A stretch of 64,000 nt of DNA. Source: Scilla litardierei (lineage: Eukaryota; Streptophyta; Magnoliopsida; Asparagales; Asparagaceae). The translations under genes were made by a program, and so were the position numbers. The DNA lies in contig CM061142.1 of NCBI GenBank assembly GCA_030789695.1, forward strand, positions 45,121,375-45,185,374, read 5' to 3'. Shown in pieces: positions 11,613-48,427 of the stretch. Every line of letters starts with the position of its first letter. The stretch's first letter is position 1. A model generated the notes under the pieces. It worked only from the letters and a program-made list of their open reading frames with translations, did no database searches and was not told the origin of the DNA.

Positions 11613-12112
11613 NNNNNNNNNNNNNNNNNNNNNNNNNNNNNNNNNNNNNNNNNNNNNNNNNNNNNNNNNNNNNNNNNNNNNNNNNNNNNNNNNNNNNNNN
11701 NNNNNNNNNNNNNNNNNNNNNNNNNNNNNNNNNNNNNNNNNNNNNNNNNNNNNNNNNNNNNNNNNNNNNNNNNNNNNNNNNNNNNNNNNNNNNNNNNNNN
11801 NNNNNNNNNNNNNNNNNNNNNNNNNNNNNNNNNNNNNNNNNNNNNNNNNNNNNNNNNNNNNNNNNNNNNNNNNNNNNNNNNNNNNNNNNNNNNNNNNNNN
11901 NNNNNNNNNNNNNNNNNNNNNNNNNNNNNNNNNNNNNNNNNNNNNNNNNNNNNNNNNNNNNNNNNNNNNNNNNNNNNNNNNNNNNNNNNNNNNNNNNNNN
12001 NNNNNNNNNNNNNNNNNNNNNNNNNNNNNNNNNNNNNNNNNNNNNNNNNNNNNNNNNNNNNNNNNNNNNNNNNNNNNNNNNNNNNNNNNNNNNNNNNNNN
12101 NNNNNNNNNNNN
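11613..12112. other. Assembly gap, exactly 500 N
   Basis: A run of exactly 500 N. This is a scaffolding placeholder, so true distance and content are unknown. Open frames that cross it are meaningless. Confidence 0.99.
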
Positions 12113-15897: not shown

Positions 15898-15962
15898 CCC
15901 TTTCCCTCTAAAATACCCTCTCACCTCGCTTTCACAAAGCTAACAACCCCCCCTTTTTTCCC

Positions 15963-15969
15963 TATAAAT
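15963..15969 (+). promoter_or_regulatory. TATA box of the CCR gene
   Basis: TATAAAT 111 bp upstream of the ATG at 16,080, after a CT-rich stretch. This is a plausible distance for a leader of about 80 nt. Confidence 0.6.
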
Positions 15970-16079
15970 TCAAGCTATCGCTAGAACCCTGCAGGCCAAG
16001 TACTAGCAATCATCACAGCGTTTGTCATTTTCAAATATTTCCCTTTTTTTTTTGTTGGTCGGGGGTTTGGGTTGCGAGA

Positions 16080-19000
16080 ATGCCAGTCTACGCGTCGTCG
16101 GTCACCGGCAGCGGCGAGGTTGTGTGCGTCACCGGCGGGGGCGGTTTCATTGCTTCCTGGCTGGTGAAGCTTCTGCTTGAGAAAGGGTACGCCGTTAGAG
16201 GGACCGTGCGTGACCCAGGTTGGTTGATTATATACATCACTGGCGTGTTGTTTTCCGTTAGAATGCATTCATCATGAAATTGATTCTGTGTTGGCATTTG
16301 TGAAGTTGATCAACATTTTGTTTATAGCGGAGTGAAGGTAAAATGATGGTCCACTTATATTAAATCTCAAATGGTTTATATATTGTTTGTATTTTTTTAA
16401 CGTAAGAGAAGTTGAATGAGCTTTGCTAGAATAGAGCCATGAATATGGGTCTTTTCCTGATATAATATGAATGATCAAACATTGAGAGTTTTGAACAAGG
16501 ATTTCAGGTCGAAGAGCTCTCACATGTTCCAATAGATCAGGTGACAAGAAATAAAAAAGGTGGAAAGTATAAGCCCCTACATAAGCTTATACTTGGCTCC
16601 GGAAGCTTCAATGACAAGCGTCTGTTTGCATAAATGCATGCTTACACGTGGATCCCTGCAGGTCCCACAGCTTGTTGGGTGGTGGTCAATGGAGCCGTGA
16701 GTTTTGGTGGGAGTTAAACCAAACATGAACCAATCTGTGTACGTTAACGACGTAAGTCTCAAGTAACCAGACTTCTTGTCGTTACACGTTGCAACTGCAT
16801 GCTGAAAATAATCAAACATCAACAACAAAAACATCAACAACGTACCCTTAAAATATTAAAAACAGTCAATGTATGAAGACAAGACAAGCCACCGGACTCC
16901 TTATATGTATGTAGCCTCAAACATGATAAACAGCCAATGTATGAAAACGAGTCACTCTAGACTTCTTATGTATAAAAACCATACATAACACGTACAAACA
17001 TAGTGCTGCTGGGCCCCTTAAAAAACCACACAGGCAGGATGCGGGACCCGTGCACAGGAGCAAAGAAGAGAGCAGAGAGAGAGTGTGTGCAGTGACTGTG
17101 GGTAAAATGGGAAAAGGATTGCTTTAAGTGCAAAAACAACGGGGGAAAAATTCCCAACGACAAACTCGTAAAAGGGGAATGATGGAGAATGTTTTTGGGG
17201 ATGTTACTTGGGATTTGAATGGACAATGACAAACATGTAAATAGTTTGTGTGAAATTAAGAGTGAGGTGCAACCCCATGTCGAGGGTCCATGTGGCACTC
17301 CTCCCTTATTGCCACATGCGACAAAGGGGTGCCACATGGGACAAACATCCTTCTTTCTATAATAGATATATAAACACTAATCATAATTCATGATAATAGC
17401 TCACGGGACATCCAAAGTATTTCGTTTAAAAAATTCCACATATTCATAATCTCCACTGAAAAATTATAGCCTCTTCAAAATCCATTCTTAAAAAATTTGT
17501 AACCACATTCAAACTAAAATTTAGTTCACCTAGAGATTTAGTTCCATCTAAAAATTTCATTCCGCCCAAAGTTTAAAATTTTAGTTCATTCCAGATTTAT
17601 TTCGTACCAAAATTTAAAATTGAAAGTTAGTTTATCTAGAGAATCCAGTTGACCATAAACTTAGCTCAAAATTTAGCTAACCCGAAATTTATTTCCATCC
17701 ATATTTAGTTTATCCCAAAATTCCAAGTGTTTTACCCTAAAATTTTACCCCAAAAATTTTAGAGGTTTCCCCCAAAGTTTTTACATTTATACCCATTTAT
17801 TCTTCAAGATTTAATTTCAGCCGTCTTTCGTCCAGCCATTTTGTCTTAGCCAGCAACTCTATTCAAAATCAGCATTCAACTATATTATATATATAATGGT
17901 ACCACTAGTCCAAGGTGGTTTGCATTTTTGTTTGGCAACACCTATATACATCCCCTACTCATAGGGGTGTATGCAACTTTAGTTTCAAAATTTGGAACAA
18001 TTATAAAATTATTGGCCAATTTAATTGCTTTCTTTTCCATTTTAAGGAAAATTGGGCATACAAAGCTACATACACCCCTACTCATAGGGGTGTATTTAGC
18101 ACAAATCTTTTGGTTATGTTTTTGTTTGGAAAATACTGCATGCACCTTGAAGAATGAGGTGCATGTACTTAATATTTCCTTAAAAAGTAAATGTGTCATC
18201 TCATAAATTAAAATCAGGTTCTTTCTCTTTTCCAATTAGCAAAACTTGACCCTGAATCCTATATGCACCTCATTTTTTTTTAAGTGCATTTAACAATTCT
18301 CTGTGTTACATTGACAACTTGACGGACACGTAATCGAGCATTGAAGTGGTTAAAGTCACATCTGCATGCAGAAAGTAATCAAAAATTACTATAAAACACG
18401 AAACCCGTAAAATATTGTAAACAGTGAATGTTTGAAAGACAAGCCAACCTACCCACCAACGTGTAGCTCAACCGGCCAGGGGGTTGTGCTAGCTTCTAGG
18501 AGGTCTCGAGTTTGAGTCCTCCTGGATGCAGCTGCGTTAAAAATTGGTGAGGGAGAGCTTTGGCCGCCCTATGCGGGTCCTACCCGGCTCGAGCCGGATT
18601 AGTCGTCGTCCAATGTGGTGTCCAGAAACCGGTGGTTAAATACCAAAAAAAAAAGACAAGCCAACCTGACTTCTTATTTAAATTTATTTATTTATCTGTA
18701 TACTGTTAACAACATTTCGAGAGAGATTCCACAAAGTCATGCGACGCTATTTGGACGCCTCTTAATCATTCAGTTTACAAATTTCTCTTTAAACGTCCAT
18801 GGACATTAAGTGTACTACAATGCAACACTATTTTGACCACTAGTCAATACTATTCAATTATTATTTGATCCTATGATTCCTATTTGAACAGTCTCAAAAA
18901 TTAATAGCGGTCTATGTGGCTGGACGTATCAATTCTCTCACACCATTAGTCACCACATTCGTTAACAGGCTTGCTGGATTTTCTTTTGTATAGATCTTTA

Positions 19001-21130
19001 CTAGTCTAATCACATGTTGATCCATTATCTCGTGTATATAATGATAATGAATGTTGATATGTTTTGCGTGCAGGCGATATATTGAATTCTTGCTCAAATC
19101 TAATTCGCGCTAACTGTCACAATCTACATTGCACGCATTTTGCTTGATTCCTAGACCTCGGAGAAATCGCTTTAACCACAATATTTTCCTACTAATTTTT
19201 GTGAGTGAAACTTGTCGAAAGCCAGCAGCAGAACAAGAGAAATTTTGCTCGAAATGTCGATTAGGTTGACGGGTAATTACAAGAGACTTTTCTTCCGTTA
19301 TGGATATCGGAACAACTTTTGCGATCTTGACTATCAAGATAAAGCTCCTCCCACAAAAATGTAGAGAAAACATGATGTAGATTCTCGGCTATCAAGTTCT
19401 CTAGCCATATCTAAATCAATATAGCCGTCCAAGATTAGTTTAGCTCTCCCGTTGCAAAGACATATCTTTGATGTACGGCCTTGAGATATCAACGGGTCCA
19501 CTTGACTGTGATCCGAATGTGTTTTTCCAGTATTAAAAAGGAATCAAATCACCATTCCCATTGCATCGGTAATGTCAGATCTTGTACATGCCATTGCATA
19601 TAACAAGCTTCCAACCGCTTAAGAATATGGTATAAATTCCATCTCATTCATCTCTTTCTTTGATGAGAGAGGCTTGACCTCTTGCTCAACTTGAAATGAT
19701 GAAATGTTGATTGGTTTGACATGCACCATCTTGAATCTCTTAATTACTATTCAACATATAACTTCTCTTGAAGTAGTCGTTAACTTTTTATTTTTCTGAA
19801 CCATCTACATTTCCATAATTTATTGAACCAGACCTTAATCTTTCGTATCAAAAGACTTAATTAGTGCGTACATGCTTCAGCTAGCTAATCTTCGTTGCAT
19901 CTTATTTAATGACTATCTCAATATTTGAACAGATAGCAAGTTATTTTTTTGTCATACAACAGCCTGCATGAACTTCAACTCTCTATCATGTACTCCAGAT
20001 GATCCCAAGAACTCACATTTGAGGGCGCTGCAAGGAGCGGCAGAGAGACTCGTCCTCCTCAAAGCCGACCTCCTCGACTACAACAGCCTCTCCGCCGCGA
20101 TCGGCGGCTGCACCGGCGTCTTCCACGCCGCCTCCCCGGTCACCGACGACCCAGTATAGCAACCCAACCCCAACAATGGCCTCTTCCTATTTCTGAAAAG
20201 GACTCACAGTCCAAATATATGATTTGGCTGACAATTTTGATTGGCAGGAGAAGATGGTGGAGCCAGCGGTCAGGGGGGCCGAGAACGTCGTCCGTGCGGC
20301 GGCCGCGGCCGGCGTGCGCCGCGTGGTGTTTACGTCTTCCATCGGGGCGGTGTACATGGACCCGAATCGCGACCCCGACGCCGTCGTCGACGAGTCCTAC
20401 TGGAGCGACCTCGAGTACTGCAAGCGCACCAAGGTGATCAACTGACGACACTGTTAGCGCACACATTACACATTTGACACTCAAATGCTTCGACTGCGTG
20501 CATGCTTGCAGAATTGGTACTGCTTCGCAAAGACGGTGGCCGAGCAGACGGCGTGGAAGACGGCGGCCGAGCTCGGTGTCGACCTCGTGGTGGTCAACCC
20601 GGTGCTCGTCCTGGGCCCGCTGCTCCAGCCGACGGTCAACGCGAGCACCGCGCATATAATGAAGTACCTGACGGGATCGGCCAGGACTTACACGAACGCC
20701 GTTCAGGCTTACGTGGACGTCAGGGACGCGGCGGCCGCCCACGTGGCGGTCTACGAGTGGCCGGCGGCGGAAGGGAGGTACCTGTGCGCAGAGAGCATGC
20801 TGCACCGCGGCGACGTCGTGCGCATTCTTAAGAAGCTCTTTCCGCAGTACCCCGTGCCGACCAAGTAAGCAATCTGAAGAGTTTTGCTTATTCATCTAAC
20901 CGTTGCAAAAAAAGTTATGTCACGAAGAAACTGTTATACATGCAACATGTGGATTCTAATGTATGTCGAAATTATGAAATGACAGGTGCTCAGACGAGGT
21001 GAGCCCTCCAAAGAAAGGGTACGAGTTCACAACGCAGAAGATACGGGACCTGGGAGTGCATTTCACCCCTGTGAAGCAATGCCTCTACGAAACCGTCAAG
21101 AGCCTGCAGGAGAAAGGCCACCTCCACTAG
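16080..21130 (+). CDS. CCR: Cinnamoyl-CoA reductase (CCR or CCR-like), five exons, 325 aa
   Basis: Reduces hydroxycinnamoyl-CoA esters to aldehydes with NADPH, the entry step of the monolignol branch, in the cytosol. Exons: 16,080-16,218; 19,999-20,153; 20,248-20,433; 20,512-20,864; 20,986-21,130. All introns are GT-AG, phases agree and the spliced frame is open (978 nt). Visible features: Rossmann motif [11 protein letters not shown] (GxxGxxA, residues 19-25); catalytic Ser in FTSSIGAV (128/129); YxxxK in NWYCFAK (Tyr163, Lys167); the conserved [14 protein letters not shown] stretch and a typical KSLQEKGH tail. Length and five-exon structure fit the family. The signature reads NWYCFAK rather than NWYCYGK, so a CCR-like enzyme with different activity is possible. 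GC-rich exons contrast with AT-rich surroundings. The first exon sits 3.8 kb from the rest across a transposon-laden intron. AC motifs upstream suggest MYB control. Confidence 0.92.
16600..17670. repeat. Dispersed/segmental repeat, copy 2 (in CCR intron 1)
   Basis: Collinear with 12,780-13,840 (see copy 1), with small indels, including about 45 bp extra near 16,870-16,930. Same orientation as copy 1. No coding content. Confidence 0.8.
18451..18654 (+). mobile_element. tRNA-derived SINE with TSD
   Basis: About 204 bp. It starts with a Pol III A-box-like TAGCTCAACCGG (about 18,473) followed by a B-box-like GAGTTTGAGTCC (about 18,508), and ends with TACC and an A10 run. It is flanked by a 13-bp direct repeat, GACAAGCCAACCT (18,438-18,450 and 18,655-18,667), which is the TSD. 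It lies in CCR intron 1 in the sense orientation. Clean TSDs imply fairly recent insertion. Confidence 0.9.
18900..19790 (-). pseudogene. Decayed Copia (Tork-like) RT/RNase H fragment in CCR intron 1
   Basis: On the minus strand, in order from 19,770 down: [92 protein letters not shown]. This is the order of the end of RT and the RNase H domain in Tork-like Copia polyproteins. Many stops and frameshifts interrupt it and neither LTR is seen. Antisense to CCR. Confidence 0.8.
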
Positions 21131-22770: not shown

Positions 22771-23820
22771 TGACCGGCGCCCCGTTTACGGTTTGGACGC
22801 GGTGTCGTTTTACCGCAAGTGCACGGTTAGTGTAGGGTGCGGGTTTATCGAACTCAGGGAGGTGGATGGCTTGAATGGCTACTGCCTCGCCTAGGTTGTG
22901 TGCTAGCTACGCGGGTGATATGAGTGGAAGTGTAGAAATAAAAGAAAGAAATGAAAAAGACACGAAAAGAATCCCCGCTAACACGGGCTAGAGCATTCAT
23001 GACACTTGGCATTTGACTTGACCCAGGGTGAGACATTGCCCCAAAAGGTGGTACCTAGCGTCCATGGCCCGATATTTCGGTCGGTGCCTAGTGTGCTAGG
23101 CCTACCCGGTTCCGGACGGTGGGCATTCCCATGTCCATTAACACCTTCCGCAACCGGGAGCATTAAGTCCACAATGATACCTCCCAACATTTCGTCCAAG
23201 CCGTTCCCACGCGCGAGGACTCGATGTCAACGCTAGAGGCGTGAGCTATGGATAGGGAGTCAACCGCCAAGTTTATTCCCCTTTGGCCCGACGGTCAGAG
23301 GCGGTCTTTCTCCCGCCAATGACAATAAAACACCCCCGCGTAACCCTAATGGCCAAATAGGTCGAATGTGATTTCTAGCAATACATCAAAGCGGATCTTG
23401 ACTGGACAAGACACCGGACCCCAATCCCCAACACATCTAGTGTGTTACCGTACGAATTGGACTCAGATTGCTAGAAATCCACATTGACACATTTCATCGA
23501 ACACATGCCATGCAACCAGGCCAAATGTAAATTTCCAAGCATCAATCCTATCCTAACCCGTATTAGGGTTCATCAAACGCTACTCGATGGTGAAGAACAT
23601 GATAGAAAGCAATAATAATGACAAACAAACATTCACCATCAACCAACAAAGAAAATAACACAAAACAATAGAAAATGAGAGAAGAAAATACTCAGCTTGC
23701 AATTGAACCCATCAATCCATTACAAGGTTTATTGGAAGATAAAACCCTAATCTAACCTAACCTAAAACTCCCAAGAAAGGGGAGGGAAGCTTGCTGAAAA
23801 ATGGGAGAGAATCCTCTCCA

Positions 23821-24165
23821 CACTACTACAAAAAAACACTTGCATAACGCTTTTTTTTTACACTTGGATAGCGCTTTTAAGAGCTATCCAAGCTACCGCT
23901 ATGGTAGCTTGGATAGCGCTTTTATAAGCGCTATCGTAGTGGTTTACTAAGATAGCGCTTATAAAAGCGTTATCCAAGCTACCGCTATGGTAGCTTGGAT
24001 AGCGCTTTTTAAGCGCTATCTAAGTGGTTTACTAAGATACTTTCTAATGTTTGGACTGGCCGTGGCTAATACGCAATAGCCACAGATTGGCCGTGGCTAA
24101 TACGCATTATCCACGGCTAGTCCGTGGCTAATCCGCATTAGCCACAGACTGGCCGTGGCTAATGT
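23821..24165. repeat. CACTA left subterminal repeats
   Basis: Inverted and direct copies of GGATAGCGCTTTT/AAGCGCTATCC fill 23,868-24,020. A second motif, CCGTGGCTAAT with complement ATTAGCCACAG, recurs at 24,058-24,160. The first is the usual transposase-binding type of array; the second is a distinct family and may mark an older inner terminus. Confidence 0.8.
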
Positions 24166-24360
24166 TTAAATTTTTTAAATAAAAACAGAAAATCTTTAAT
24201 GCCAGCTCTTCAGCTTAAAACTTTCGTAAAGTTTCTTACCATCATTATCCGTTGATAAAGATTATAAATGTATCAACTTAAAACATTTCAACACCAGAAT
24301 TGTTGTTTATGTAGACATTGAAAATTATAAAGTTGGGCTTCTCTGACACAAAGTTGCAGA

Positions 24361-24540
24361 AGTGAAGGCGAACCAAGTAGTCGAATTTTGGATCCACATC
24401 AAACATCCAAGAAACATTGAAAGAGTGCATGTGCTCACGCAGATGACAATAGTGAAGGCGAACCAAGTAGTCGAATTTTGGATCCACATCAAACATCCAA
24501 GAAACATTGAAAGAGTGCATGTGCTCACGCAGATGACAAT
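24361..24540. repeat. Perfect 90-bp tandem duplication
   Basis: 24,361-24,450 and 24,451-24,540 are identical. The unit is 30 codons long and lies inside a minus-strand open frame (about 24,278-24,610), so the duplication keeps that frame. The encoded peptide (with HLREHMHSFNVSWMFDVDP) is not recognised. Confidence 0.9.
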
Positions 24541-26175
24541 AGCTTGCAAGCAGCAAGCTCCAACTGAGAATAACACCATGAATTTTTATCATAAGAGGAA
24601 CAATTTGCAAACATTGTCATACATGTCTAGTTTCGATGAACAAAACACAACGGACACCAGACTCCCAACCGGCATGTTAAAATTCTGATGTCTTGGTGGA
24701 TTTAGTGGATTTTGATTGATGCGTTTCCATCCACGGCTCCTCTTCAACCGTCCTAAACATTGAACAACAAACAATAGAGATATGTTGATGTGATATTGTC
24801 CTTGCAGTACCGAAATTGATATAACCAGACCTAAAATAGTGGGTGTTCAGAAGTAGATGAATCAAAGGGAAATGTAAATTGAAGAAGAGAGGTTTAAAAA
24901 CTCAAAAAGTCTTGCATTCCTTCCTGCCTCAGTCAAATCGATTGATGCGTTTCCTTCGAATCGATAATTTTCTTCTCTTGTTCTGATGGTTAATAGATTA
25001 TAAATTCTTCAGCCTCAGTCAAATGAGAGGATTCCTTCCGGCCGCATTCTCACCTACATTCATCAACAAGAAAAAGAACATTACAGCCTTTTTCACAAAC
25101 AAACTATAAACAGAGGACAGATTAGATAAATATAAAAATCCAACTCAATCTATTCAATATCACCACGAAGAAATTATACTTGAAACTAAATTTCAGATAC
25201 TAAAAGCCCAAAAAAATTCAGAAAACAAGCTGAACTGAGACGCCCATGTGATAATTGCTCCAGTTCTCAGAGGATAATGGCTACATGTGTCGAAGATTGT
25301 GAGAAAGTTCAAACAAATAGAAAGATATAATCTTTCATAAACAAAACAATATGGAATTTGTTTATAATGAAAGTCAAACATCACAAGCTATAGTGCAGGA
25401 ACATGGAATGCAGCTCAATAGAAAGAAAGATGCAAGTTAATAAGGTTAATTCTGAAAACTTCCTTTGATCCAAATATGATAAACTTCAGAAATACAAGTA
25501 TGTTCAGAAATTAAAAATGTCATCATAAAATGTCATCGACAAAATCATGCACCTAAAATGAGTGCTTTTTGCTCAATTAAGCTCCTCTTGGTAGGCGTGT
25601 GGCAGGCGGTAATGTTATCAACCTACATCAACCTTCTAAATAACAAGCCAAACTGCAACATTTAATTCACATGTTTGGGCTTTTCCTCAAGCCTGATACA
25701 TTTTTTATGGCTAAAGAACACATGCTTCGTCTAATATATGAACAAGTGTGTTCTTTAGCTATTTCCTACATGTTTGCATGGATGATGTACTAATGCATGC
25801 GTACCTCTACTATTATAAAGGGGAAAAGGGTTTGTACCCCAGAGTCCCTCTGTAACCGGACTATTTTTACTTGGTTTTATATTTGGGTGAGTCCCACAAC
25901 AGTTTCCGAAAATTCGATGTGAAAATATGACAACACTAGAATAAGTACAATTTCCAGATATCAATATTTATTGTTTGTTTGTAGTGAAAAGAGGCCTAAA
26001 ATTGAAAGTTTGGAAATGTTCTTCTGGGGCTCTGGAGTTTTCTCTTTTATCATATAAAGGTGTCTCTACAAATTATGATACACATATGTTCATGCATGAT
26101 CAACATAGTTGATCAGAATGCCAAAGCATGATGTGAACCATCCAGATATGTCTGCTATCACTTATTTAATATGAA

Positions 26176-26490
26176 GTGCGTGCCAAAAACATCTACGTGA
26201 ATCCAGTAATTTTAATTTTCAAATTTTCCAGTCTTGTTCCTTTTGTAAAAGATGTTTTACTTCTCCAACCACTAGTCACATCAAATGAAAGTCCGGAAGA
26301 ATATAATCTTATCTATGCTTCATGGTCTGTAGATCATGATATGTGCCTCAGCCTGCAGGATATTCATTCGCATGCAGAAATGGCAAACTTGCTTACGTGC
26401 AAGGCAATAAAAACAGAATGGAAACTGTTGTTAGAACAAGGAGCCTACTCAGGTGTCTATCATAGGATAGCCTTAAATATTCCGCAATAA
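26176..26490 (+). other. Unrecognised open frame inside CACTA
   Basis: About 100 codons with ordinary amino-acid composition (for example ASWSVDHDMCLSLQDIHSHA) on the plus strand, opposite to the captured exons. There is no domain match that I recognise. It could be another captured exon or chance. Confidence 0.25.
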
Positions 26491-26838
26491 AGTTCAACAC
26501 ATCTAATTTCAACAAGACACTTCCTAGAATGAATTAATTAGATGTAAAAAAAGCTCAGCTACAAGCAGAGAGCAAATACTTGAATAAAGGTATGGTTCTT
26601 GTTATGCTGAAGTTATGACTAATGAGCACACTGTAAATATATTCCAATCATGTTTATCTAGAAAACTTTAACACACATATGATGGATTTCAATGAAAGAT
26701 ATAAATTAGCCAAAAATGTTCAAATCATCTAATACATTACAATCTAAAATTCCACAAAAATATCATGTTTTGATGAAATCGCAAGTGTTTATTGCAAATA
26801 AAGGAGATCAGACCAGAGCTTTTTAAAATTTAACCATA

Positions 26839-29363
26839 TTATAAAGATGGAGTAAAAGAATAATGCTCTGAATACTCACGATCCGTGGTAAAACCATCAC
26901 ATAAAGACATAAATTCAGTTTCCATGTTAGTCATGGCTTCATGGTCTGTAGTTCGGCGCTGCCCTAAGAAACTATCCACCTCGTCAATAAAAATAATAGC
27001 AGGCTGAAGCTTATATGCTAGAGTGAACACCGCAGCCACTGCACCATTCAAGAGAGGAACATTGAGCAAAGTATGGTAGACAAATCAGATAAAAGTGAAA
27101 TTTATCAGGAAACAAACATAAAATGTAAACAAATATAAGTTCAAGATCATAGCAGCATCCATAAGGATGGAAACATGCACGACGATTCCCCCCATACTAT
27201 GAAGAGCATAATGGAAAGAATTTTAATTCCCTACACAACCATCAGAAACGATACCAAAATGTCTTTTACTTACCAAGATTTTGAGCATCTCCAAAACATT
27301 TACTCATCAAATTAGATACCCTTACATTAATAAAAACAGCTCCAGATTCTCTAGCTATGGCCTTTGCCAGCATTGTTTTTCCAGTCCCTGGAGGCCCATA
27401 TAACAGAACTCCCTTTTGTGGACTAAGAAGCTTTCCATGTGAAAATAACTCAGGTCGCCTCAGTGGAAGAATAACCAATTCATATAATGCTTGCTTTACT
27501 TCATCGAGACCTCCGATAGAGTCAAACTCAACATTAATATGGTCAGGATTTATAACATCACATGCTATTACATCCTGTAATATGATAATATAAAAATGTC
27601 AACAACAAGAAATACAAACAACAAGGAGTGCTAACATACACACATCAAATCATAAAGATAACAATATTCTCATATAACAATATAACATGCTGGCCTTAAA
27701 AATATTGTGACAAGCTGCAATATAAATTATGTACAGCAGGAATAAGAACCATTCTAGGAAACAACTTCATAATTTTATTTCTTAGGTACCACCAAAACAA
27801 AAACAAAGTTGATAATTTTGGGTATTCAATTCAATAATTCAATAATGCCTAAATTCGGTTCATTACATACCTTCAACATGAGTGTCGCCATGGACGAATT
27901 CTCCTTCCACCAATACCTTCAACATGAGTGTCGTTCATGGGTTTATACTTGGAAAAAACTGCCTTAGAAAGTAACTGCTATATTTACATGACCATGGAAC
28001 TTCAAATATAACGACAATGTAAATAATTCCTGCATTTTCATAAATAGCATACCTTTGGGGAAAATTCTTCAGAGAGATAGACAGTGCTTGAATTTAGTTC
28101 AGATAATGCAAATGGAGGCTGCAGCTCTGTGTGCAAGTACCTTAGACCACGAGCAATGCCCAGTGCAATTCTCATGCGTCTAAGCCAGGATAACTGGCAT
28201 CCCCCGCCGTCTACAATAAGAAGTTGGAGTTACATCCTTCACATTCCAAAGATATCAACTATGAAGGTACCAATCAGAAGGAACAAAAATGAAAATCTTC
28301 CATATAGATCTGATATGAGTAAGAGTATTGAATTCAGGTCTTACTCTTTTTCCATATAGATCTGATGAAAAACAAATACCAAGAAAAGAAACAAATTGAG
28401 ACATCATATTATAAACAAGAGTATTGAATTCAAAAGCAAGACCCTTTAAAAAGAATAAATGATCACCACAACAATATCATAAACTTAGGCTGATCTGCAA
28501 CTGAACTCAAAGATGAGAGGGATAAATAAGCTCAAAGAAATTAGATCAATATAACATATGGTCTCCAAATTCAGGCAAGGGCTTACTCAACCAAGGTCGC
28601 TCTGTTCCCATAAATTGATTCACCATCAAAGGAGAGAATACGCCAAACTCAGGTGGAACTGAACTCCTGACATCTGCATAAACAAATACGGATATGATAT
28701 GAAACTATGTTGAAAAAAGAAAATAAAGTAAAAAAAGAAATCCATAAAACGCATAGGCAAGCCAACATTTTAAGTTATGAATGATCAGAAAGCCCTGCAG
28801 CTACCATGATGGTGTAATATTAACCAGAAAGTAAACACTCATAAAATCATTCTTCAATGAAAAGCACAATTCTCTCATGCCACTTTACATCACACATTGC
28901 TTATTTTAGCAACATAGCATACTCAAGCCACGAATTGAGTGCAAGGATTTCATAGCCAAATTAAAATCTGCTCATCGAGTTGTGACTTCATGATTGTGTA
29001 TAGGTTCACAAATTCACTCTTGTGGATACATATGCATACGCAAAGAACTAATCTCAACCAAGTTAACACATGATAACTGACTAATTCTAGATTAGGCCTA
29101 ATTCAACCCCAAGGCAGCAGGAAAGGAAAATAAAGAGCGAATTACCAGACGCCATTAGAACCGTGGATCGCTGCATGGTGAAGATTGTTAACTGGCAGTA
29201 TCTTGAACCGAGAGAGAAGACCCACATGATCCGATAACGAGCTCTTGAACCGAACAATGGCTGACCTCTCGACGATTCTAGGGCTTTGGGCGGCGGCGGA
29301 GAGAACTGAGAGGAGAAAGACGAGGGTTTTGGCAAGAAGAACCCTCGGCGACCGGCAGAGCAT
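26839..29363 (-). CDS. Chimeric five-exon ORF in CACTA: presequence-like, kinase and AAA pieces
   Basis: Minus-strand exons: 29,363-29,146; 28,666-28,587; 28,210-28,053; 27,574-27,274; 27,038 onward. All have GT-AG junctions and the frame stays open across all four joins (2, 1, 0 and 1 leftover bases). Exons 1-2: ATG, then an Arg-, Ser- and Leu-rich N-terminus like a mitochondrial presequence; protein not recognised. Exon 3: LSWLRRMRIALGIARGLRYL, the helix before the catalytic loop of an LRR-receptor-like kinase. Exons 4-5: ATAD1/MSP1-like AAA ATPase with FDSIGGL, Walker A GPPGTGKT and Walker B IIFIDEVD, lacking sensor and Arg-finger parts. If exon 5 is not spliced (donor GTGAGT at 26,879), a stop follows at 26,839-26,841 and the product is about 318 aa. 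Most likely pieces of two or three host genes captured by the transposon; expression is unknown. Confidence 0.75.
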
Positions 29364-29754
29364 TGTTCGGTGAAAACACTAACCCTGACTTATGCTCGTC
29401 TGATGCCCGAAACCCTAACCCTAGAATTTGAGAGGAACTAAAAGGGTGAGTGGCTGAAACACAAATTGCAGATGTGTGAGGGGTGTTTCAAGCTTCTCCC
29501 CTTTCGAGTAGCGACCGAAAAGCCGTTGATGAAGTAGAACGGAGACGCCGCTGATCGGAGACGCCCGGATCGATCGAACTGGACGAGGTCGGAGATGCCG
29601 CTGATCAGAGACGCCGCTGTGAGGAGGGGGAGGTCGAAGATAGCTGCGAGGAGGAAGAGGCGTGAGACGAGAGTTGGGAGGAGGGGAGGCCTGAGAGTTG
29701 GGAAATTAAGTCAGGGCTTAGAATATACGAGGGGGAATCGGGAAGGTTATTTTT

Positions 29755-30016
29755 GTTAAGCGCTATCTAAGACATATATTTTTTTAATAAATGTGCTTAC
29801 GTAACGGTTAGTACCATAACGCTATAAAAAAGCGCTATGTAAAGTATTACTTGGATAGCGTTTTAACAAAAAGCGCTATCTAAGTGATTTTTATCTTAAT
29901 TTTGATTTATTTTTATTTTCTAAAAGTACAGAAACGCTATACAAGAGTCCACTTAGATAGCGCTTTTTAAAAGCGTTATCTAAGTGGCGTTAGCCAAGCC
30001 CAAATCTATAGTAGTG
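29755..30016. repeat. CACTA right subterminal repeats
   Basis: Copies of AGCGCTATCTAAG and GGATAGCG(C/T)TTTT in both orientations, the same word as at the left end, leading to the TAGTAGTG terminus. Confidence 0.85.
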
Positions 30017-30969
30017 CCAAGTCGTGCTCCAACTCCCCTTTATAAGCCCACTCAAAACCCAACCGGTTCGGGTCCAAAACACACTCAAATCTGCTAAAAC
30101 AGGCCCACTCGATCAGGTGGAAGTTCACCCGATCGGGTGGACAGAAACAGAGACTCAAAAATGCAGAAAATGATCTCACCCGGTCGGGTGAAGTTCAATT
30201 CCAGACAGCACCCAATTTCAGCACATAGCTGCGCTCAGAAAATTCCAGAAAAAATGTAGAAAAATCGGATTTGGGCATGCGACCTATCGTTGGAAAGATA
30301 ATGACGATGCCGTCGCTAGAAAAATAAGAGATCACCCAAAACCATTCTGGAATGATAGCAGATCTTCAATGAGTGCATCAGCAGCGCGCGAAAGTGGAAG
30401 AAAAGGCCACCCGATCGGTTGAAACATCAACCGATCGGGTGAGCTGCTTGTTGCTTTGGCCATCGGGCTTCGGGAGCTTCAACCGGTCACTGAGGAGAGC
30501 GGATGGAGCCGTCGGTTCGATATTTGAGGCGATGCGGCTACAGATGAACCGATCGGGTGAGATGTCACCCGATCGGTTGGAATTCAGCTCCAAATTCCCG
30601 AGAACTCAGCTGTGTTCAACCGGTCGGCGAACCGGTCAGTTGATCTTCACTTCGCTTCAGCTTCCGTCTGGGTCGGACTCGCGTGCATCACCCGATCGGT
30701 TGGCTGTGTCCAACCGATCGGGTGGGGGCTGAAAGATGGCAATCTTGGTCGTTTGACCCCCTGGATCGCGCGTGACTCCTCCCGTTGCTCCGGGGGCTCA
30801 TGATATCTTCATTATATGTCCTAAATGCTGGAAATCTTCTGCATTCACACAAAAGACAAAGAAGTGAAATAAAACTAGAAATCACAAGAAAACGGGTACG
30901 GAACGACATAAAACAGTGGAAAATCACAAAGAAGACGTGCGTGAATATATGAAATATAAATGCACGTCA

Positions 30970-32790
30970 AAATCCCCCAAGCTAAACCCTTCCTCGTCCT
31001 CGAGGAAGACGAGTGAGAGTAGGAGCTTGAAGGGAAAAATAGAAAGAGAGAGAGAGAAAGAGAAATCAAAATCCTAAATCGCCTGTCAGAACCAACAAAA
31101 TCAAATACGCCACACTAAGCAAGCATACGACAAAACACAACACTAAACCAAGGAATGTGAGTCCAAACAAGTATCGTGGGCCCACGCAGTGAAGCGCGAG
31201 TGAGTGTGGTCGTGTGCTAGTAGACGGTGTCACTATCTACATCGTGCAATAAAGCTCCATATACCCATACCCAAAGAAAGACCCAAATATCGATTCAATT
31301 TGAAATTGCGGTGAATATTAGCTCAAGCATGCATGAGAAGAGTATAAGAATAGAAGCGTATCATGCATCGGGGATTCCACAGCTAGGGACAAGGAAATCA
31401 CCACACTATAGCCTAGATAATCACTAGAAGGTCCCTATGCCAAGTGTTTTTGAAAACCATGGAGGTTGAGAGGGTGTGGAGTAGAACACTCGGTGCAAAT
31501 TCTCGCCTTCCCTTTATTCACGGTAGATAGGAAAAATATTCACACGGGAAATTTTTGGGTTTTTGGGTATTTGTATTTTTTTTGGATTTTTGGCTATACA
31601 TATTTTTTTTCTCTTTTCTTTTCTTTTTTGGGTTTTTCTTTTCTCTCTTTTTTTGGATTTTTGGATATTGGGATATATACATGTGTACTCTCCCAAGTGG
31701 GAGAACAGTACACGACGAGGGGATTGGCACCAAGTAAAACAAAAAAGAAATCGGAATCTAAACACTTGGGCAAAGGAAATATTTCTCGCAAGTTAGAACA
31801 TGGGCTAAATGAATTATCCTAGTCCTTGTTTGTGGAATCCCGACACATGAGAATTGAAACATACGATATAAACATATAACATGCATATAGAAGCAGACAG
31901 TAGAAGCAAATACCTCATATTCAAATCGAAGCATGATAATCTAGGGGTCAACCAAGGATATGTATATAAATCAACATCACAAAGTAGAAGCACACAATAA
32001 GCTAGTCACGACACACGACTCTCATAGAAGCATAGTGAACCCACGAAGCATGAAATGCAATAGGACTCGGCTTCCTAGGGTGAGTGAATGTGATCATCGT
32101 AGCTATGCTAAGTGTGTGTGTGTGTGTGTTTTTTTTTTTTCAGTGGCAATTCATCATATGGGGTCATCTCTAGGAGAGAGAGAACGAAAGATGAGAAGAA
32201 AAAGAAAACCACGATGGAAAACGACTCAAAAACAAAGAAAAACGACACAAATGACGCACGAAGTGCGACTCCCCCCAAGCTGAAACTTGCATTGCCCTCA
32301 ATGCAATAATAGTTTATACGGGAGGGCAAAGAAAATGGGGGGAGGGTGCGCACCGACACAAAAAGTGAAAAACATGAAAAACACATGAACGAAACTAAAA
32401 AATAAAGAAAAAGAAACACTCAAATAAAAGATATAAAACACGACGAAAGAACACATAGACACAGACACACAACAACGACACTCGAAAACATGCACACAAA
32501 TCGATTCCCCCCAAGCTGAACATGACAATGCTAGCAAAATGATATGATCAATGTGATGCAGAAATACGCAAGGGGAAGATCGGAAAAGAAAAGAAAGAAA
32601 TCAAAATGCAGAAGAGATGGTGTGCTCATTCTCCTCGGAAGAGGATGTGGGGTGTGGGCGGTAGAAGCGATAGAAGGGCACGACATGATGGGTTATTATG
32701 ATGCAAAAGCAAATCCTAGATACGCTCCCCTCGCTAATGAGAGGAGACGAGATTATTCAAATCTAAACTAGAAAGCTGTAAATTTTTACA
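30970..32790 (-). other. 3' non-coding part of the reversed element with PPT
   Basis: Starts beside the LTR with the polypurine tract (minus strand AGCTTGGGGGATTT, 30,970-30,983) next to a CTTCCTCGAGGA word also found at the Athila 3' end. Two more PPT-like AGCTTGGGGGGA words lie at 32,270-32,281 and 32,506-32,517 (minus strand). A (GT)n/T run is at 32,112-32,141. No gene is seen. Confidence 0.75.
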
Positions 32791-33156
32791 CTACTGGATT
32801 AGGATACACCTGAGCATAGGCGGATCTAAGATCTGAAGTGGGGCAGGTAGCTGCTCTAACTGCTCCTTCTGTGGCTCCGCCAGTAGTGTTGTGCCACGTG
32901 TGCCAATGGACCCAAGCAATGCACCTCCAAGCATTCCTCGTAGGTGTCCACCTGTGACCTGCAAAGGACGAGGTGCATTAGTCCATGGCAAGAAATTATT
33001 TCCCAAAATAAATGTATCCCAGAGATAATCGTCAACATAAGATGGAAAAATAATAAAAGGGTGACGAATACTCCCTGAGAATGGGTCGCTATCCTCTGTA
33101 CTAGTGACGACCAAATCCTTGTTGTCCATGAGAAGTGGCTCTCCAGGTGGTAACAC
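32791..33156 (-). CDS. Second small ORF of the reversed element (121 codons)
   Basis: An open frame downstream of the zinc-knuckle ORF, preceded by a splice-acceptor-like TCTCTCACAG at about 33,194-33,203. It may be a second exon of the same transcript. No domain is recognised. Confidence 0.3.
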   Translation of the reverse strand: MLPPGEPLLMDNKDLVVTSTEDSDPFSGSIRHPFIIFPSYVDDYLWDTFILGNNFLPWTNAPRPLQVTGGHLRGMLGGALLGSIGTRGTTLLAEPQKEQLEQLPAPLQILDPPMLRCILIQ

Positions 33157-33227
33157 ACCGCAGCATACCTCAAGGGAAGTAGATCCTGTGTCCTGTGAGA
33201 GATATGGTGTGTCAAATATATATGAGT

Positions 33228-34124
33228 CTAAAGAATAGGAACTGAAAAGCGAGACTCAAAAGTGGAGTGAGAGTGAGTATGAAAATCTCCCTGAATAGGG
33301 GCAATATGCTCAAGTAGATGCTCAGCCGCAGAAGAAGTGGAGAGCGACGGTAAAGGTAGATGTGACTCCGGCTCCATGGAGTGGACCATCGTATCCAAGC
33401 CCTCATGCATATCCTCCTCGACGATATGCTCATGCTCCACCATCTGCCCGATGTCCTGAATGACATCCTCGTGGTTGACCACAGACCAAGGAAGAAGCAG
33501 CAACAGAGATGACAGTGGAGGTGGATGTGGAGCGGACCACTCGTATGTTGTCGTGGTGTCCGTGTTCTCACACACATCCTCCTCGCCAGTATGCATAAGC
33601 TCTCTGGTCTCCTCGGTGCCCTCGTAGGACTCATGTGGGGTATCCAAATCAAGATGAGAAGTCTCTCCCACAAATCCTAGAGACATCTCCCCATCCTCAC
33701 TATCACCATCAAAAAATGCTTCGTCATCCAAGTGGTAGTGTTGGAAAAATAGGGTATCGGCATAAGATTTGTCTATGGGGGCCGATGAGATGGTGGTCTC
33801 AACCATGAAAGTGGGTATATCCTCTCCTTCATCCCCTCTTCTTGGTGTATGCTCGGTGATTGGTACCATCAAGTTTTGTAATATTTGGCCTTGGTTAAAC
33901 ATGGCACTTTCAAGGAGAGACACGAGGCTTGATTCTTCTTGTGTTTGTGGAGGGGTACAAGGTTGAGGAAATGGATGGGAGGTGTTTGGGATAAGGTTGT
34001 GGGAAAATGTTTGGCCTTGGGGTAGGGGGAGGCTCTCAAGCGTAAATGGGCAATCATAATACATGTGCCCCGCCATCCCACAAGTCTCACAAACCACAAA
34101 TGAATAGGGATCATAGCCTCCCAT
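33228..34124 (-). CDS. Zinc-knuckle gag-like ORF of the reversed element (298 aa)
   Basis: Starts with ATG at 34,124. Near the N-terminus is CETCGMAGHMYYDC, a CX2CX4HX4C zinc knuckle typical of gag nucleocapsid. The rest is acidic and rich in Glu, Asp, Ser, His and Pro, with no recognisable domain. It lies about 220 bp downstream of the primer site. A full capsid domain is not evident, so this is either a reduced gag or a family-specific protein. Whether it is functional cannot be judged. Confidence 0.6.
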   Translation of the reverse strand: MGGYDPYSFVVCETCGMAGHMYYDCPFTLESLPLPQGQTFSHNLIPNTSHPFPQPCTPPQTQEESSLVSLLESAMFNQGQILQNLMVPITEHTPRRGDEGEDIPTFMVETTISSAPIDKSYADTLFFQHYHLDDEAFFDGDSEDGEMSLGFVGETSHLDLDTPHESYEGTEETRELMHTGEEDVCENTDTTTTYEWSAPHPPPLSSLLLLLPWSVVNHEDVIQDIGQMVEHEHIVEEDMHEGLDTMVHSMEPESHLPLPSLSTSSAAEHLLEHIAPIQGDFHTHSHSTFESRFSVPIL

Positions 34125-34346
34125 CTGAGCATCGAAATCTGATCTCCATATGGCAATATCAAAGATACCTGGACAATAAAAATAAGAAAACTAGAGAGGG
34201 GCGTCAATAGCACAAGAGAATAACAAAAAGATAATATAATGGTGGGGAAAAAATTTCTTTGTTATTGTATATTTTTTTAAATTTTTTTTTGGGTTTTTAT
34301 GCGTAGTCTAACGAACCCAAGCTAAGCAAATATCAAACCGAACACC

Positions 34347-34364
34347 TCCCCGGCAACGGCGCCA
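34347..34364 (-). promoter_or_regulatory. tRNA-Asp primer-binding site
   Basis: The minus strand reads TGGCGCCGTTGCCGGGGA, an exact complement of the 3' end of plant tRNA-Asp(GTC) including CCA, 6 nt from the LTR end. This fixes the element's direction. Confidence 0.92.
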
Positions 34365-34370
34365 AAAACT

Positions 34371-36394
34371 TGACCGGCGCCTCGTTTACGGTTTGGGCGC
34401 GGTGTCGTTTTACCACAAGTGCACGGTTAGTGTAGGGTGCGGGTTTATCGAACTCAGGGAGGTGGATGGCTTGAATGGCTACTAGCCTCGCCTAGGTTGT
34501 GTGCTAGCTACACGGGTGATATGGGTGGAAGTGTAGAAATAAAAGAAAGAAATGAAAAGGACACGAAAAGAATCCCCGCTAACACGGGCTAGAGCATTCA
34601 TGACACTTGGCATTTGACTTGACCCAGGGTGAGACATTGCCCCAAAAGGTGGTACCTAGTGTCCATGGCCCGATATTCCGGTCGGTGCCTAGTACGCTAG
34701 GCCTACCCGGTTCCGGACGATGGGCATTCCCATGTCCATTAACACCTTCCGCAATCGGGAGCATTAAGGCCACAATGATAACTCCCAACATTTCGTCCAA
34801 GCCATTCCCACGCGCGAGGACTCGATGTCAATGCTAGAGGCGTGAGCTATGGCTAGGGAGTCAACCGCCAAGTTTATTCCCCCTTGGCCCGACGGTCAGA
34901 GGCGGTCTTTCTCCCGCCAATGACAATAAAACGCCCCCACGTAACCCTAATGGCCAAATAGGTCGAATGTGATTTCTAGCAATACATCAAAGCAGATCTT
35001 GACTGGACAAGACACCGGACCCCAATCCCCAACACATCTAGTGTGTTACCGTACGAATTGGACTCAGATTGTTAGAAATCCACATTGACACATTTCATCG
35101 AACACATGCCATGCAACCAGGCCAAATGTAAATTTCCAAGCATCAATCCTACCCTAACCCGTATTAGGGTTCATCAAACACTACTCGATGGTGAAGAACA
35201 TGATAGAAAGAAATAATAATGACAAACAAACATTCACCATCAACCAACAAAGAAAATAACACAAAACAATAGAAAATGAGAGAAGAAAATACTTAGCTTG
35301 CAATTGAACCCATCAATCCATTACAAGGTTTATTGTAAGATAAAACCCTAATCTAACCTAACCTAAAACTCCCAAGAAAGGGGAGGGAAGCTTGCTGAAA
35401 AATGGGAGAGAATCCTCTCCAAGTCGTGCTCCAACTCCCCTTTATAAGCCCACTCAAAACCCAACCGGTTCGGGTCCAAAACCCACTCAAATCTGCTAAA
35501 AACAGGCCCACCCGATCGGGTGAAAGTTCACCTGATCGGGTGGACAGAAACAGAGACTCAAAAATACAGAAAATGATCTCACCCAGTCGGGTGGAAGTTC
35601 ACCCGATCGGGTGAAGTTCAATTCCAGACAGCACCCAATTTCAGCACATAGCCGCGCTCAGAAAATTCCAGAAAAATTGTAGAAAAATCGGATTTGGGCA
35701 TGCGACCTATCGTTGGAAATCTAACGACGATACCGACGCTAGAAAAATAAGAGATCACCCAAAACCCCTCTGGAATGATAGAAGATCTTCACTTAGTGCA
35801 TCAGCAGCGCGCGAAAGTGGAGGAAAAGGCCACCCGATCGGTTGAAACATCAACCGATCGGGTGAGCTGCTTGTTGCTTTGGCCATCGGGCTTCGGGAGC
35901 TTCAACCAGTCACTGAGGAGAACGGGTAGAGCCGTTGGTTCGATATTTGAGGCGATGCGGCTACAGATGAACCGATCGGGTGAGATGTCACCCGATCGGT
36001 TGGAATTCAGCTCCAAATTTCCGAGAACTCAGCTGTGTTCAACCGGTCGGCAAACCGGTCGGTTGATCTTCACTTCGCTTCAGCTTCCATTCAGGTCGTA
36101 CACGCGTACATCACCCGATCGGTTGGCTGTGTCCAACCGATCGGGTGGGGGCTGAAAGATGGCAATCTTGGTCGTTTGACCCCCTGAATCGTGCGTGACT
36201 CCTCCCGTTGCTCCGGGGGCTCATGATATCTTCATTATATGTCCCAAATGCTGGAAATCTCCTGCATTCACACAAAAAAGACAAAGAATTGAAATAAAAC
36301 TAGAAATCACAAGAAAACGGGTACAGAACGACGGAAAACAGTGGAAAATCACAAAGAAGACGTGCGTGAATATATGAAATATAAATGCACGTCA
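34371..36394 (-). repeat. 5' LTR of the reversed element
   Basis: 2,024 bp from TGACC to GTCA on the plus strand. Palindrome words CACCCGATCGGGTG and CAACCGATCGGGTG fill 35,508-36,150. The minus-strand TATAAA box is at 35,441-35,446, about 70 bp downstream of the array in the reading direction. At 35,418-35,425 it keeps the unbroken CTCCAAGT where the other LTR is split by the CACTA. Confidence 0.93.
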
Positions 36395-38669: not shown

Positions 38670-40371
38670 TGATCACTCCGTATTTTACACCTTTTTTCTG
38701 CATGTTTGCATGCACTTTAGATCGCTCAAATCGTGTTTTTCATGTTTATTCGACAATATTGCGATGCTTTTCACGATTTGTTGTTTTTGTCATATTTCAG
38801 GAGATTTGGAGCGATTTGGAGTGATTCTGAGATGCACCCACTCCAGAGTGTCACCGACAACTCTCTTGAGGGGTATTTTGCTATTGGAGAGGAGTGGAAG
38901 GAGAAAGAACGTCGCAGGAGTGACGAGGAGGCAAAAATATGAAGAATGGGCATTTTGAGCATGTCACTCGGCCGAGTGAAGGAGTCACTCGGCCGACCAT
39001 CGGAAGCCCGCTCGGCCGGCCAGATCGGACACGCAACAGAGCTAATATCAGCGTGCACTCGGCCGAGCATCGCCAATTCACTCGGCCGAACCACGGATAC
39101 CCACTCGCCCGAGTGGCATCAAGACGGCGGCAGCAAAAATCACAGACTTACTGTTTTTGTACAGTCAAATTCCGAGTCGCCGTCTGCCCGAGTGACAAAT
39201 GACGTCCGCCTGAGTGACATTTGTCACTCGGCCGAGTGAGCCACGCTGCCTGTAGCGTAAACTGCGATTTTGAGGCTGCGCAGGGGCATTTTCGTCAGGG
39301 GTTTTTGGGCGATTTTGGGGGGTATTTAACCCCAGTTTCTAACCTAGTTTAAGGAGCCTTTTTCAGAACTTTTGCAGCCTTTTTGGATTAAAAGGAATTA
39401 TATTGAGCTTTTAGAGAGGAGAGAAAAGTGAGATTTTATTGGATGATATCTTGTTCTTCATTGGTTGTCTTTCTTTCTCTCAAAAACTCCATTTTTATTG
39501 AATTATTGAATATTGCTATGAATTCCATTCATTTTACTTGCGAATTTCTATTGAATTTGATTATGAATTGTGAGTAGTTCATCGTCTTAGGGCATAGGGA
39601 TGAACCATACGAACCCAATTTCAAAATTGTGATGAATTGGTGAAACTATTGCTAGGATTGATTAGGGTTAGTTTGGGATCGCTATAAAACGAATAGCTAG
39701 GGATTCATACCGATTGGGATTTGCAAGAGATTGGATCCCAATTCGATAGGAAGCCCTAGATATTCAAATTGGGTTGCATTTGAATTTCTCCGGAATCGGT
39801 TTGCAAGAGATTGGACCAAAACTAGGGTTTTCGATTGCAATTCTATACCAATACCCGTTTGCAAGAGATTGGACGGGTAGGAACTATCCCAACCTAGGTC
39901 GTAGCTCGAGTTTGCACGAGAGTGGGCTTGAGATACGATTGAACGATGATGTTGTTCTTCACGCTAGCTTGCCTAGGTTAGGGTTTGCAAGAGATTGGAC
40001 CCTACACTAGGTTTGCTATAGACCGGCAATAGCGCGAGAGCGTGAGCTTGGTTCTATATTTAGTTGCAACTAGTCCACCCAAATTTCAAGTCTTGCAATT
40101 GTGAAACCTACGAATCACAATGACGAGATGGGGCAAGTAGCGGGGATTCCCTACCCCTAGGCGTCTTTATTAATTTGTTATTCCTTTATTACATTTGAAC
40201 GACTGTGACCGCATATTTGCGAACATTTCTCGACTTTTCCTATAGCCAGGTGATTGAAGAAGACACAGTTACTAAGCCTCCCTGTGTTCGATACCCGCTC
40301 GCCGCTACACCGTGCGCTTGCGGTAAGACTACAGTGTCGCCGCTCCGGGACGTGTATCCGGGGCGCGATCA
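38670..40371 (+). repeat. Athila 5' LTR
   Basis: 1,702 bp, TGATCACTCC to GCGCGATCA. The palindrome CACTCGGCCGAGTG (38,965-38,978) and partial copies run to about 39,240. A TATA-like TATTTAA lies at 39,323-39,329. Further on, GTTTGCAAGAGATTGGA recurs several times (39,720-40,010). Confidence 0.95.
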
Positions 40372-40395: not shown

Positions 40396-40507
40396 GCGCA
40401 ATAGTGTTTGATTCTATCTACCTAGATATTTCTTTTTTTATCATTTCTATTTATATTTTACCCTTCTTTTGTGTTAACTATTTCTTTGAAACTCTTTTCT
40501 CCCTTGC

Positions 40508-46553: not shown

Positions 46554-48427
46554 TGTTGGATATTGGACTCCCCGAATTTGGTTTTGGATGATGAACAAAC
46601 ATAAATATAATATGAACTAACACTCTGTGAGCGCAGTTATGGAGATCGTCGCCAAATTCACATGAATATCAATAACGACGTCTCAAGACTTCTCAAAGCA
46701 CGTGATCGTATGCCTAAAGCTTCGTTGAAGCTTATGGACCTATTTAGAAGTCATGAAGATTCGATTGAAGCTATTGAAGACGGTATCGTCAAGTTTATTT
46801 AATAGTCTTTAAGCTTCTTTCGTAGAATGTTAAGCCTTGAGTAGGTCTTACGTTTTAATTCTTCATAACGCTCATATCTTAGCTCTAGGATCTTAGTAGA
46901 AGTCCATACAATTCTTCCCGAAGCTTCGCGCTTCGATTCGGGACTTCTTGTGCATGTTAGTTGGTTCAAGAAGAAGAACTGACCGACTAGATGGTGATCT
47001 AGTCGGTCAGCCAAGCTTCTTGGACCGACTAGTTTCTGTCAGTTAATTCTTAGCTCTTTACTGTTTACAGTTAGTCGGTCTAAGTTGACTCACCGACTGA
47101 CTAGTTTGTGAACTAGTCGGTCAGTGATGCTTCTGTGACCGACTAGTTGAGCTTTCCCTGAACATGCACATTTGAGCTTGAGCTACTGTTTATCATTAGT
47201 CGGTCTGTGCTCATTGATCGACCGACTAGTTGATGAACTAGTCGGTCAACTTTCCTTCTTGGACCGACTAGTTTAGTTTACTGTACATGCCAAATTTTTC
47301 ACCATACTTACTGTTTATTGTTAGTCGGTCTATGTTTATTTGGTGACCGACTAGTTGGTGAATTAGTCGGTCAACATTTGTTCTTGGACCGACTAAGTCT
47401 AATTCTTCTCAGACTTCAGTTTTATCTGTTAGTCGGTCCACGTTGAGTAACCGACCGACTAGTTGTGAAACTAGTCGGTCAGCTACTCTTCTTAGACCGA
47501 CTAGTTCCTTAGTCTGTACTTTGATCTTTTCTCAGTTTACTCATTAGTCGGTTTACGTTAATTGACCGACCGACTAGTTGATGAACTAGTCGGTCGGTGG
47601 TTGTTCTTTGACCGACTAGTTGGGTTCAGAAAAGAGCCGTTGGAGCTTTAATTGAAACGTTTTTCTCTCTCTCTCTCCTCTAACCTATATATACTTGTTG
47701 GGCTGCATTCATTGCTGCCAAGGCTGATATTAATGCAAGTTTAGAGATCAAGAGAAATCAATCCAAGCTCATTCAAAGCTCATTCCCTCCATTCAATAAT
47801 CTCTCCTAACTCTTACTTCCAAAGAGAGATTCATTGAGTGTGAAGCCTTCCAAGCCAAGTGCTTGATTCTAGGTCACCAACATCCCCAAAGCTCTCCATC
47901 GCTGATCTACATCTTGGAGCTAGGGTTTGGTGCCACTTCTTCCCCAAAATCATCCTTGCCCTAATTCGTAAGCAATACTCAAGGCATAGGTATTTTGTTC
48001 GGTAAGAAGTTTTTCTTATTTCATTTCATATTTGATTTGTAAGTTTCACTCTCGGTTGTGAGAGTGTGGTTGTGATCCCGGGTTGTGGGAGTCACAAATT
48101 ACATTTTGTATGATTTGACTTGTGGAGGTTTTTCACAAGTATTTCATAGTGGAAATCTTGAGTTAGGGTTTCTAACTCAAGTATCCGGAGGGGATCCGGG
48201 TGGTTGGGACGTAGGATCACCGGGAACAAGTCGGGGAGACTTGGGTGGATCCGAACCCAGTAACATCTCTTGTTTGCGTTGTTAATTTTGTGTTGTCATT
48301 CAATTTAAGCTTCTGTAAATTGATTTGGTAGTTGTTTGCATTTTAATTTGGAATTATACTCCTTATTATTTTAAAGTACTATTCACCCCCCCTCTAGTAC
48401 TTGTGCAGTAGCTTGTAGGGCATTACA
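46554..48427 (+). repeat. Sirevirus 5' LTR
   Basis: 1,874 bp, TGTTGGATATT to GGGCATTACA. The GACCGACTAGT/ACTAGTCGGTC palindrome array spans about 46,980-47,635. The TATA box (TATATATA, 47,686-47,693) follows about 50 bp later, after a CT-rich run. It also holds a fold-back CTCTCGGTTGTGAGAG at about 48,049-48,064. Confidence 0.96.

Follow-up and report, generated by a model that had tools for sequence, protein, structure and literature searches.

Five exon-like blocks lying one after another on the minus strand of a Scilla litardierei contig raise the question of whether a transposon has here assembled pieces of several host genes into a new gene. The blocks fall at 26839..29363 of the stretch of DNA that was analysed, which is referred to below as the window and comprises 64,000 nucleotides (contig CM061142.1 of assembly GCA_030789695.1, positions 45,121,375 to 45,185,374). 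The original prediction held that the blocks form one chimeric reading frame inside a CACTA transposon and could be a new fusion gene, possibly directing an AAA ATPase fragment to mitochondria. The capture of host exons proved to be real and neatly bounded, and a new mitochondrial fusion gene is not supported. With high probability, the locus is a Pack-CACTA element carrying captured host exons, in which the AAA piece is decaying neutrally as a passenger of the element.

The CACTA element and its setting

The element spans 23821..30016 (6,196 bp) and carries the captured exons on its minus strand. Its left end starts with CACTACTACAAA at 23821, and its right end, read on the minus strand, is CACTACTATAGA, finishing at 30016, i.e., CACTA-type termini in inverted orientation. 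The trinucleotide CCA stands on either side, at 23818..23820 and 30017..30019, forming the 3-bp target site duplication typical of CACTA transposons. These boundaries are established because the sister LTR of the retrotransposon in which the element sits keeps the same site without the insert: CCA occurs there once, in uninterrupted sequence, which provides an empty control site 5.4 kb from the element. The ends are also marked by subterminal repeats of the motif AAGCGCTATCTAAGT. A scan of the whole window allowing up to three mismatches returned 18 matches, 15 of them at the two ends of the element (nine at 23838..24025 and six at 29758..29985), while shuffled sequence of the whole window gave a mean of 1.31.

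Pfam listed no transposase family for 17 translations of the element, a subset of its open reading frames (for the first translation, the best 25 of 42 families were covered), and the element is therefore called non-autonomous. It is a Pack-CACTA-type non-autonomous transposon with host gene fragments between its termini. Its precise ends, the empty control site and the exons of probably three genes lying in one orientation make it a clean, well-bounded example of transposon transduplication.

The surrounding sequence is that of a plant genome rich in nested transposons. The host of the CACTA element is an LTR retrotransposon at 22771..36394, flanked by a 5-bp duplication (TGTAC), with LTRs at 22771-30969 (the CACTA element, in this left LTR, included) and 34371-36394. 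Aligned in two halves, these LTRs show 27 differences over 1050 sites and 43 over 953, corresponding to Kimura distances of 0.026 and 0.047. This copy of the CACTA element must have arrived later than the retrotransposon. The retrotransposon itself seems to have landed in a Copia-like element; ORFs judged by eye to be gag and pol pieces of the latter lie on its two sides (at 22419 and from 36498).

Several other features of the window were recorded. Direct repeats at 46556-48427 and 57312-59185 are 99.3% identical and enclose long open reading frames resembling Copia gag and pol (48452-53877, by eye), suggestive of a young retrotransposon; at 3-1682 there is related sequence, about 85% identical, running the other way. 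A further pair of direct repeats, at 38670-40371 and 61122-62828 and 97.7% identical, surrounds an 895-codon gag-protease-like ORF (40490-43177) and encloses the young-looking Copia-like element just described as a nested insertion. On the plus strand, a reductase-like gene at 15912-20868 has the Pfam family PF01370 (Epimerase) on two ORFs, one at each end, and we take it to be perhaps of the cinnamoyl-CoA/dihydroflavonol reductase kind. Positions 11613-12112 are 500 N, an assembly gap that accounts for the X-filled ORFs nearby.

Donors of the captured exons

The GT-AG borders of the five minus-strand blocks were confirmed at 29146/28666, 28587/28210, 28053/27574 and 27274/27038, and homology searches bore out the expectation that the element holds exons of different host genes by identifying a receptor kinase and an AAA ATPase among the sources. 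The AAA part consists of block 4 (27274..27574, minus strand), which carries Walker A, and block 5 (26880..27038, minus strand), which carries Walker B. Among the best 120 of 7673 homologues, this part is 86-91% identical to plant records over 60-64% of the query. By homology, blocks 4 and 5 represent two neighbouring exons of a plant gene for the ATAD1/MSP1 AAA ATPase (outer mitochondrial transmembrane helix translocase). The join between them aligns without a gap to all 120 of these homologues, and since it restores their sequence in this way, it is regarded as the donor's own exon-exon join. In searches of solved structures, Msp1 chains were among the matches listed for the AAA part, and the matches listed for an ATAD1/MSP1 homologue were filled by chains of the Cdc48/p97 type.

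Although the captured AAA piece is intact across 153 codons, it covers only positions 1-98 of the 131 in the Pfam AAA profile and stops five residues beyond the WD motif, ahead of the arginine-finger region and of the lid, the latter (PF17862) being present in most of the 120 homologues listed (best 120 of 7673). The donor's exon probably ends at 26880, where GTGAGT, from 26879, is most likely the 5' splice site of the AAA gene itself. The last 13 codons of the frame, REYSEHYSFTPSL, and its TAA stop come from 26839..26879 (minus strand) and probably represent read-through into the donor's intron. A similar read-through after DGFTTD is found in nine of the best 120 of 7673 plant records (eight with REY and one with REF), and at least six of the eight REY records are from one genus, Gossypium.

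The same homologues bear on whether the whole series of blocks could be one ordinary host gene, the outcome that the original prediction had itself set against a fusion. The canonical exon-intron structure is what such a gene would have. However, the best 120 of 7673 homologues match the AAA part only, 60-64% of the query, and in 109 of these 120, DVIAC is immediately preceded by the homologue's own sequence, which ends in YE, whereas the window shows the kinase block at that point. Blocks 1-3 contain nothing of the N-terminus that the homologues have upstream of DVIAC, and the whole chain of blocks sits between CACTA termini. A single host gene is made exceedingly improbable by this coverage of the AAA part alone, and this candidate was rejected.

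Block 3 (28053..28210, minus strand; phase 1 at its start and phase 0 at its end) is a receptor-kinase exon of the pseudokinase type. Its top match among solved structures, obtained with phmmer, was the maize DRIK1 pseudokinase (6cpy, E 2.1e-7), followed by BAK1, BRI1 and others; Pfam assigned no family to this short piece. Presumably, block 3 is closer in likeness to LRR kinases of the At1g63430 type. A second receptor-type fragment, absent from the original prediction, was found at 24281..24616 on the minus strand, where an 87-aa piece of an ORF matched the malectin-like domain of receptor-like kinases (PF12819 Malectin_like, E 8e-07). It contains an exact in-frame tandem duplication of 90 bp (30 codons) at 24361-24540. 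As the two copies are identical, this duplication is probably a recent event inside the CACTA element.

The malectin-like piece may share its receptor gene of origin with block 3 or stem from a third donor gene. On homology, the donors number at least two and probably three: a receptor-pseudokinase gene, an ATAD1/MSP1 gene and a malectin-like receptor kinase gene. When the frame was extended past block 5 through its probable own donor site into the malectin-like fragment, the acceptor there, one of four downstream acceptors that passed the filter, gave a frame other than malectin's. In the process that we envisage, the CACTA element would have taken up genomic fragments in which exons came together with their introns and splice sites, and the 5' segment formed by blocks 1 and 2 lies in front of them. 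If the element were transcribed, the spliceosome could join the captured exons into a chimeric mRNA, which is possible in principle because the splice sites came with the exons.

Continuity of the open frame

The single open frame over four joins held up, and its length was revised from the predicted 305 or so codons to 318 (957 nt with the stop). Neither a stop nor a frameshift interrupts the blocks of known homology, and blocks 3, 4 and 5 are read in their native frames. The long frame is less surprising for this reason and because the donor gene already supplied the block 4/5 join.

The start of the frame can be read in more than one way. Block 1 (29146..29363, minus strand), which had been described as presequence-like, is open in two frames, from an ATG at 29363 or at 29176. 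Block 2 (28587..28673, minus strand) has two possible first bases, as two AGs spaced by 7 nt can serve as its acceptor, the first giving a start at 28673 and the second a start at 28666. Using the ATG at 29176 and block 2 from 28673, with blocks 2-5 otherwise the same, an alternative open frame of 258 codons is obtained. The block 1/2 join is thus not unique, since both combinations of acceptor and ATG lead through an open frame into the same later blocks.

Blocks 1 and 2 matched no Pfam family. In the frame of the original prediction, a homologue search among proteins of about 91-288 aa returned ten candidates and none with E <= 10; in the alternative frame, a search among proteins of 170-539 aa returned one candidate and again none with E <= 10. 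The idea of a mitochondrial presequence fared poorly, given that these searches found no homologue for the two blocks and that their frame is ambiguous. A different origin would make blocks 1 and 2 the 5' end of a TnpA-like gene belonging to the element, with the host exons added behind it. Such an origin would agree with their position inside the subterminal repeats, on the 5' side of the coding strand, and with the lack of a host homologue in the two length ranges searched (about 91-288 and 170-539 aa). It is set back by the Pfam listings, which contain no transposon domain, and by the fact that a host donor of a length beyond these ranges could escape the searches. We consider a TnpA-like origin possible but doubtful.

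Chance was said to keep four joins in phase only rarely, and this argument is not supported. One of the four joins is inherited, and just two of them, 2/3 and 3/4, can be said with certainty to bring together different sources. With all intron phases taken as equally frequent, a pair of joins of this kind would be in phase with a probability of 1/9. For the 5' part, dinucleotide shuffles of 28211-29757 were made (300 per setting) and searched for splice sites by plain consensus counts, whose simple cut-offs let the real sites through and had been picked in knowledge of them. Under two settings, 45/300 and 48/300 shuffles produced a 5' extension that ran for 99 codons or more and joined block 3 in phase, so that 15-16% of the shuffles equalled or exceeded the observed one. 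The 39 codons of the alternative frame were reached or surpassed in 70% and 63%. With a stricter donor threshold, extensions of at least 99 codons were seen in 2/300 shuffles, and the real sequence then reached only 27 codons.

Altogether, the captured homologies exceed chance by far, which is not clear for the continuity of the frame. The open frame would consist mostly of exons in their native frames, together with two between-source joins that matched in phase by accident. Exon capture readily gives a long open frame without selection, and an open frame alone is no evidence of a new gene.

Fate of the AAA segment and known systems

Whether the captured AAA piece could still work was judged from its residues. 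As predicted, both Walker motifs are intact in the translation (GPPGTGKT and IIFIDEVD). The comparison set, the best 120 of 7673 homologues, is biased toward likeness to the query. Against the consensus of these 120, the piece differs at 14 of 153 residues, and ten of the differing residues were each seen in at least 5/120 homologues. The other four changes, W93C, K99N, K140E and W147C, affect near-invariant sites, and their replacing residues occur in none or one of the 120. Positions at which at least 98% of the other sequences agree number 117, and in a leave-one-out count over them the window's piece has four changes; among the 120 homologues, 96 have none, 18 have one, four have two, one has three and one has four. 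One homologue (P0093) is likewise off at four near-invariant sites (L>M, L>F, A>T and K>Q). The number of changes is therefore unusual but not unique, and it would not be decisive by itself; judged from the alignment, the weight lies in which residues were lost.

Two of these residues belong to functional motifs. The motif of pore loop 1 is given in PMC7018516 as KX1X2G with both X aromatic; block 4 has KCFG in place of KWFG, and the W is present in 119/120 homologues. The WD motif in block 5 reads CD, and its W is present in 120/120. Both new C residues are encoded by TGT. Matched by motif rather than by structural alignment, W93 corresponds to the pore-loop-1 W187 of Msp1 and W147 to the W241 of the WD motif. 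In the part of PMC7018516 that deals with these residues, W187A is reported to cause a growth defect in Msp1 and WD-motif mutants to lose activity. The arginine fingers and the C-terminal lid are missing altogether. The proposal of a working AAA fragment is not supported in view of these losses: the piece might bind ATP but would not be expected to act as an extractor.

A functional fusion gene, in which the 5' blocks target the protein and the AAA half acts, e.g., by poisoning the mitochondrial ATAD1/MSP1 hexamer, could draw on the open frame over five blocks, the canonical splice sites and the intact Walker A and B. Against it stand the loss of the pore-loop-1 W and the WD-motif W along with two more near-invariant changes, the absence of lid and arginine fingers, a C-terminus that is probably intron, and a supposed presequence without a detected homologue in a 5' frame whose openness is not unusual. 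We regard it as unlikely to be correct. Still less likely, to the point of being a very slight chance, is a more specific version in which a promoter captured at the 5' end drives transcription of the chimera, the transcript is spliced and translated, and the truncated AAA half, intact in its Walker motifs but defective in pore loop and WD motif, would bind ATP and work as a dominant negative of ATAD1/MSP1. If true, this would be a transposon-made inhibitor of mitochondrial outer-membrane quality control and, if expressed, the chimera would offer a case in which to test interference by truncated AAA proteins with the hexamer of their parent.

An action at the RNA level would not depend on a working protein, as siRNA from the captured exons could silence the donor ATAD1 or kinase genes. 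The captured coding sequence is still near its homologues at the protein level, and the relevant portion of PMC8903248 discusses how small RNAs made from Pack-TYPE elements may hit genes of similar sequence. However, a BLAST comparison of the element with the window returned only the terminal and subterminal repeats and the 90-bp duplication, with no inverted exon duplicate that could form a hairpin. Such silencing also appears improbable to us.

Neutral decay as a passenger of the CACTA element, perhaps with low-level chimeric transcripts, would be the most likely fate of the captured exons, because the AAA piece is truncated and functional residues are lost. The residue losses appear to fit relaxed constraint after capture rather than a new mitochondrial ATPase. 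The four near-invariant changes, a protein-level proxy that stands in for dN/dS against the donor DNA, point to relaxed constraint, and a young capture would look much alike, selected or not. We infer neutrality and no protein function for the chimera.

The element has good parallels. The term Pack-TYPE is used for host exons between the termini of DNA transposons in the sections of PMC8903248 and of the review PMC13317346 drawn on here. According to the same 2026 review (PMC13317346), in the part concerned, captured sequences are mostly pseudogenized or lost, with some fragments expressed. CACTA elements of Chenopodium are also described as holding captured gene fragments (PMC8978399, in excerpt). 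In morning glory, the account of the Tpn1 family in PMC5105172, as excerpted, gives CACTA-type elements with a mean length of 7,081 bp, nearly all with 3-bp target site duplications; the non-autonomous members have conserved termini, an interior of captured host genic regions and, in some cases, chimeric transcripts. The element described here resembles them in its CACTA type, its 3-bp duplication and its captured interior, which is a likeness and not a family assignment.

The closest comparison in the sources consulted is soybean Tgm-Express1, the CACTA element of the wp allele (Zabala and Vodkin 2007, PMC1947982), which is reported there to measure 5.7 kb and to contain five unrelated host fragments with usable splice sites. 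Chimeric transcripts were detected by RT-PCR, with chimeric frames of 105-418 aa, and, since the element lies in an intron of F3H, the longest chimeras include F3H exons (PMC1947982, in the passages on these transcripts). To that extent, the two elements are alike in being CACTA transposons of similar size with host fragments, splice sites carried along with them and open frames across fused exons. Unlike Tgm-Express1, with its F3H intron and RT-PCR transcripts, the present element lies in an LTR and is known from DNA alone. Chimeric open frames from CACTA-captured exons are thus already documented in soybean.

A literature search for a report joining Pack-CACTA and ATAD1 did not find the term Pack-CACTA among the matches listed. 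With respect to ATAD1/MSP1, the source of blocks 4 and 5, what the element retains is confined to the beginning of the ATPase domain, in which two functional sites have changed from W to C. Measured against Pack-CACTA and Pack-TYPE elements as described in these sources, the present one combines fragments of probably three genes with a long multi-exon frame, a combination that is not unique in view of Tgm-Express1, and it appears to be an instance of gene shuffling of a familiar type and not a new working gene.
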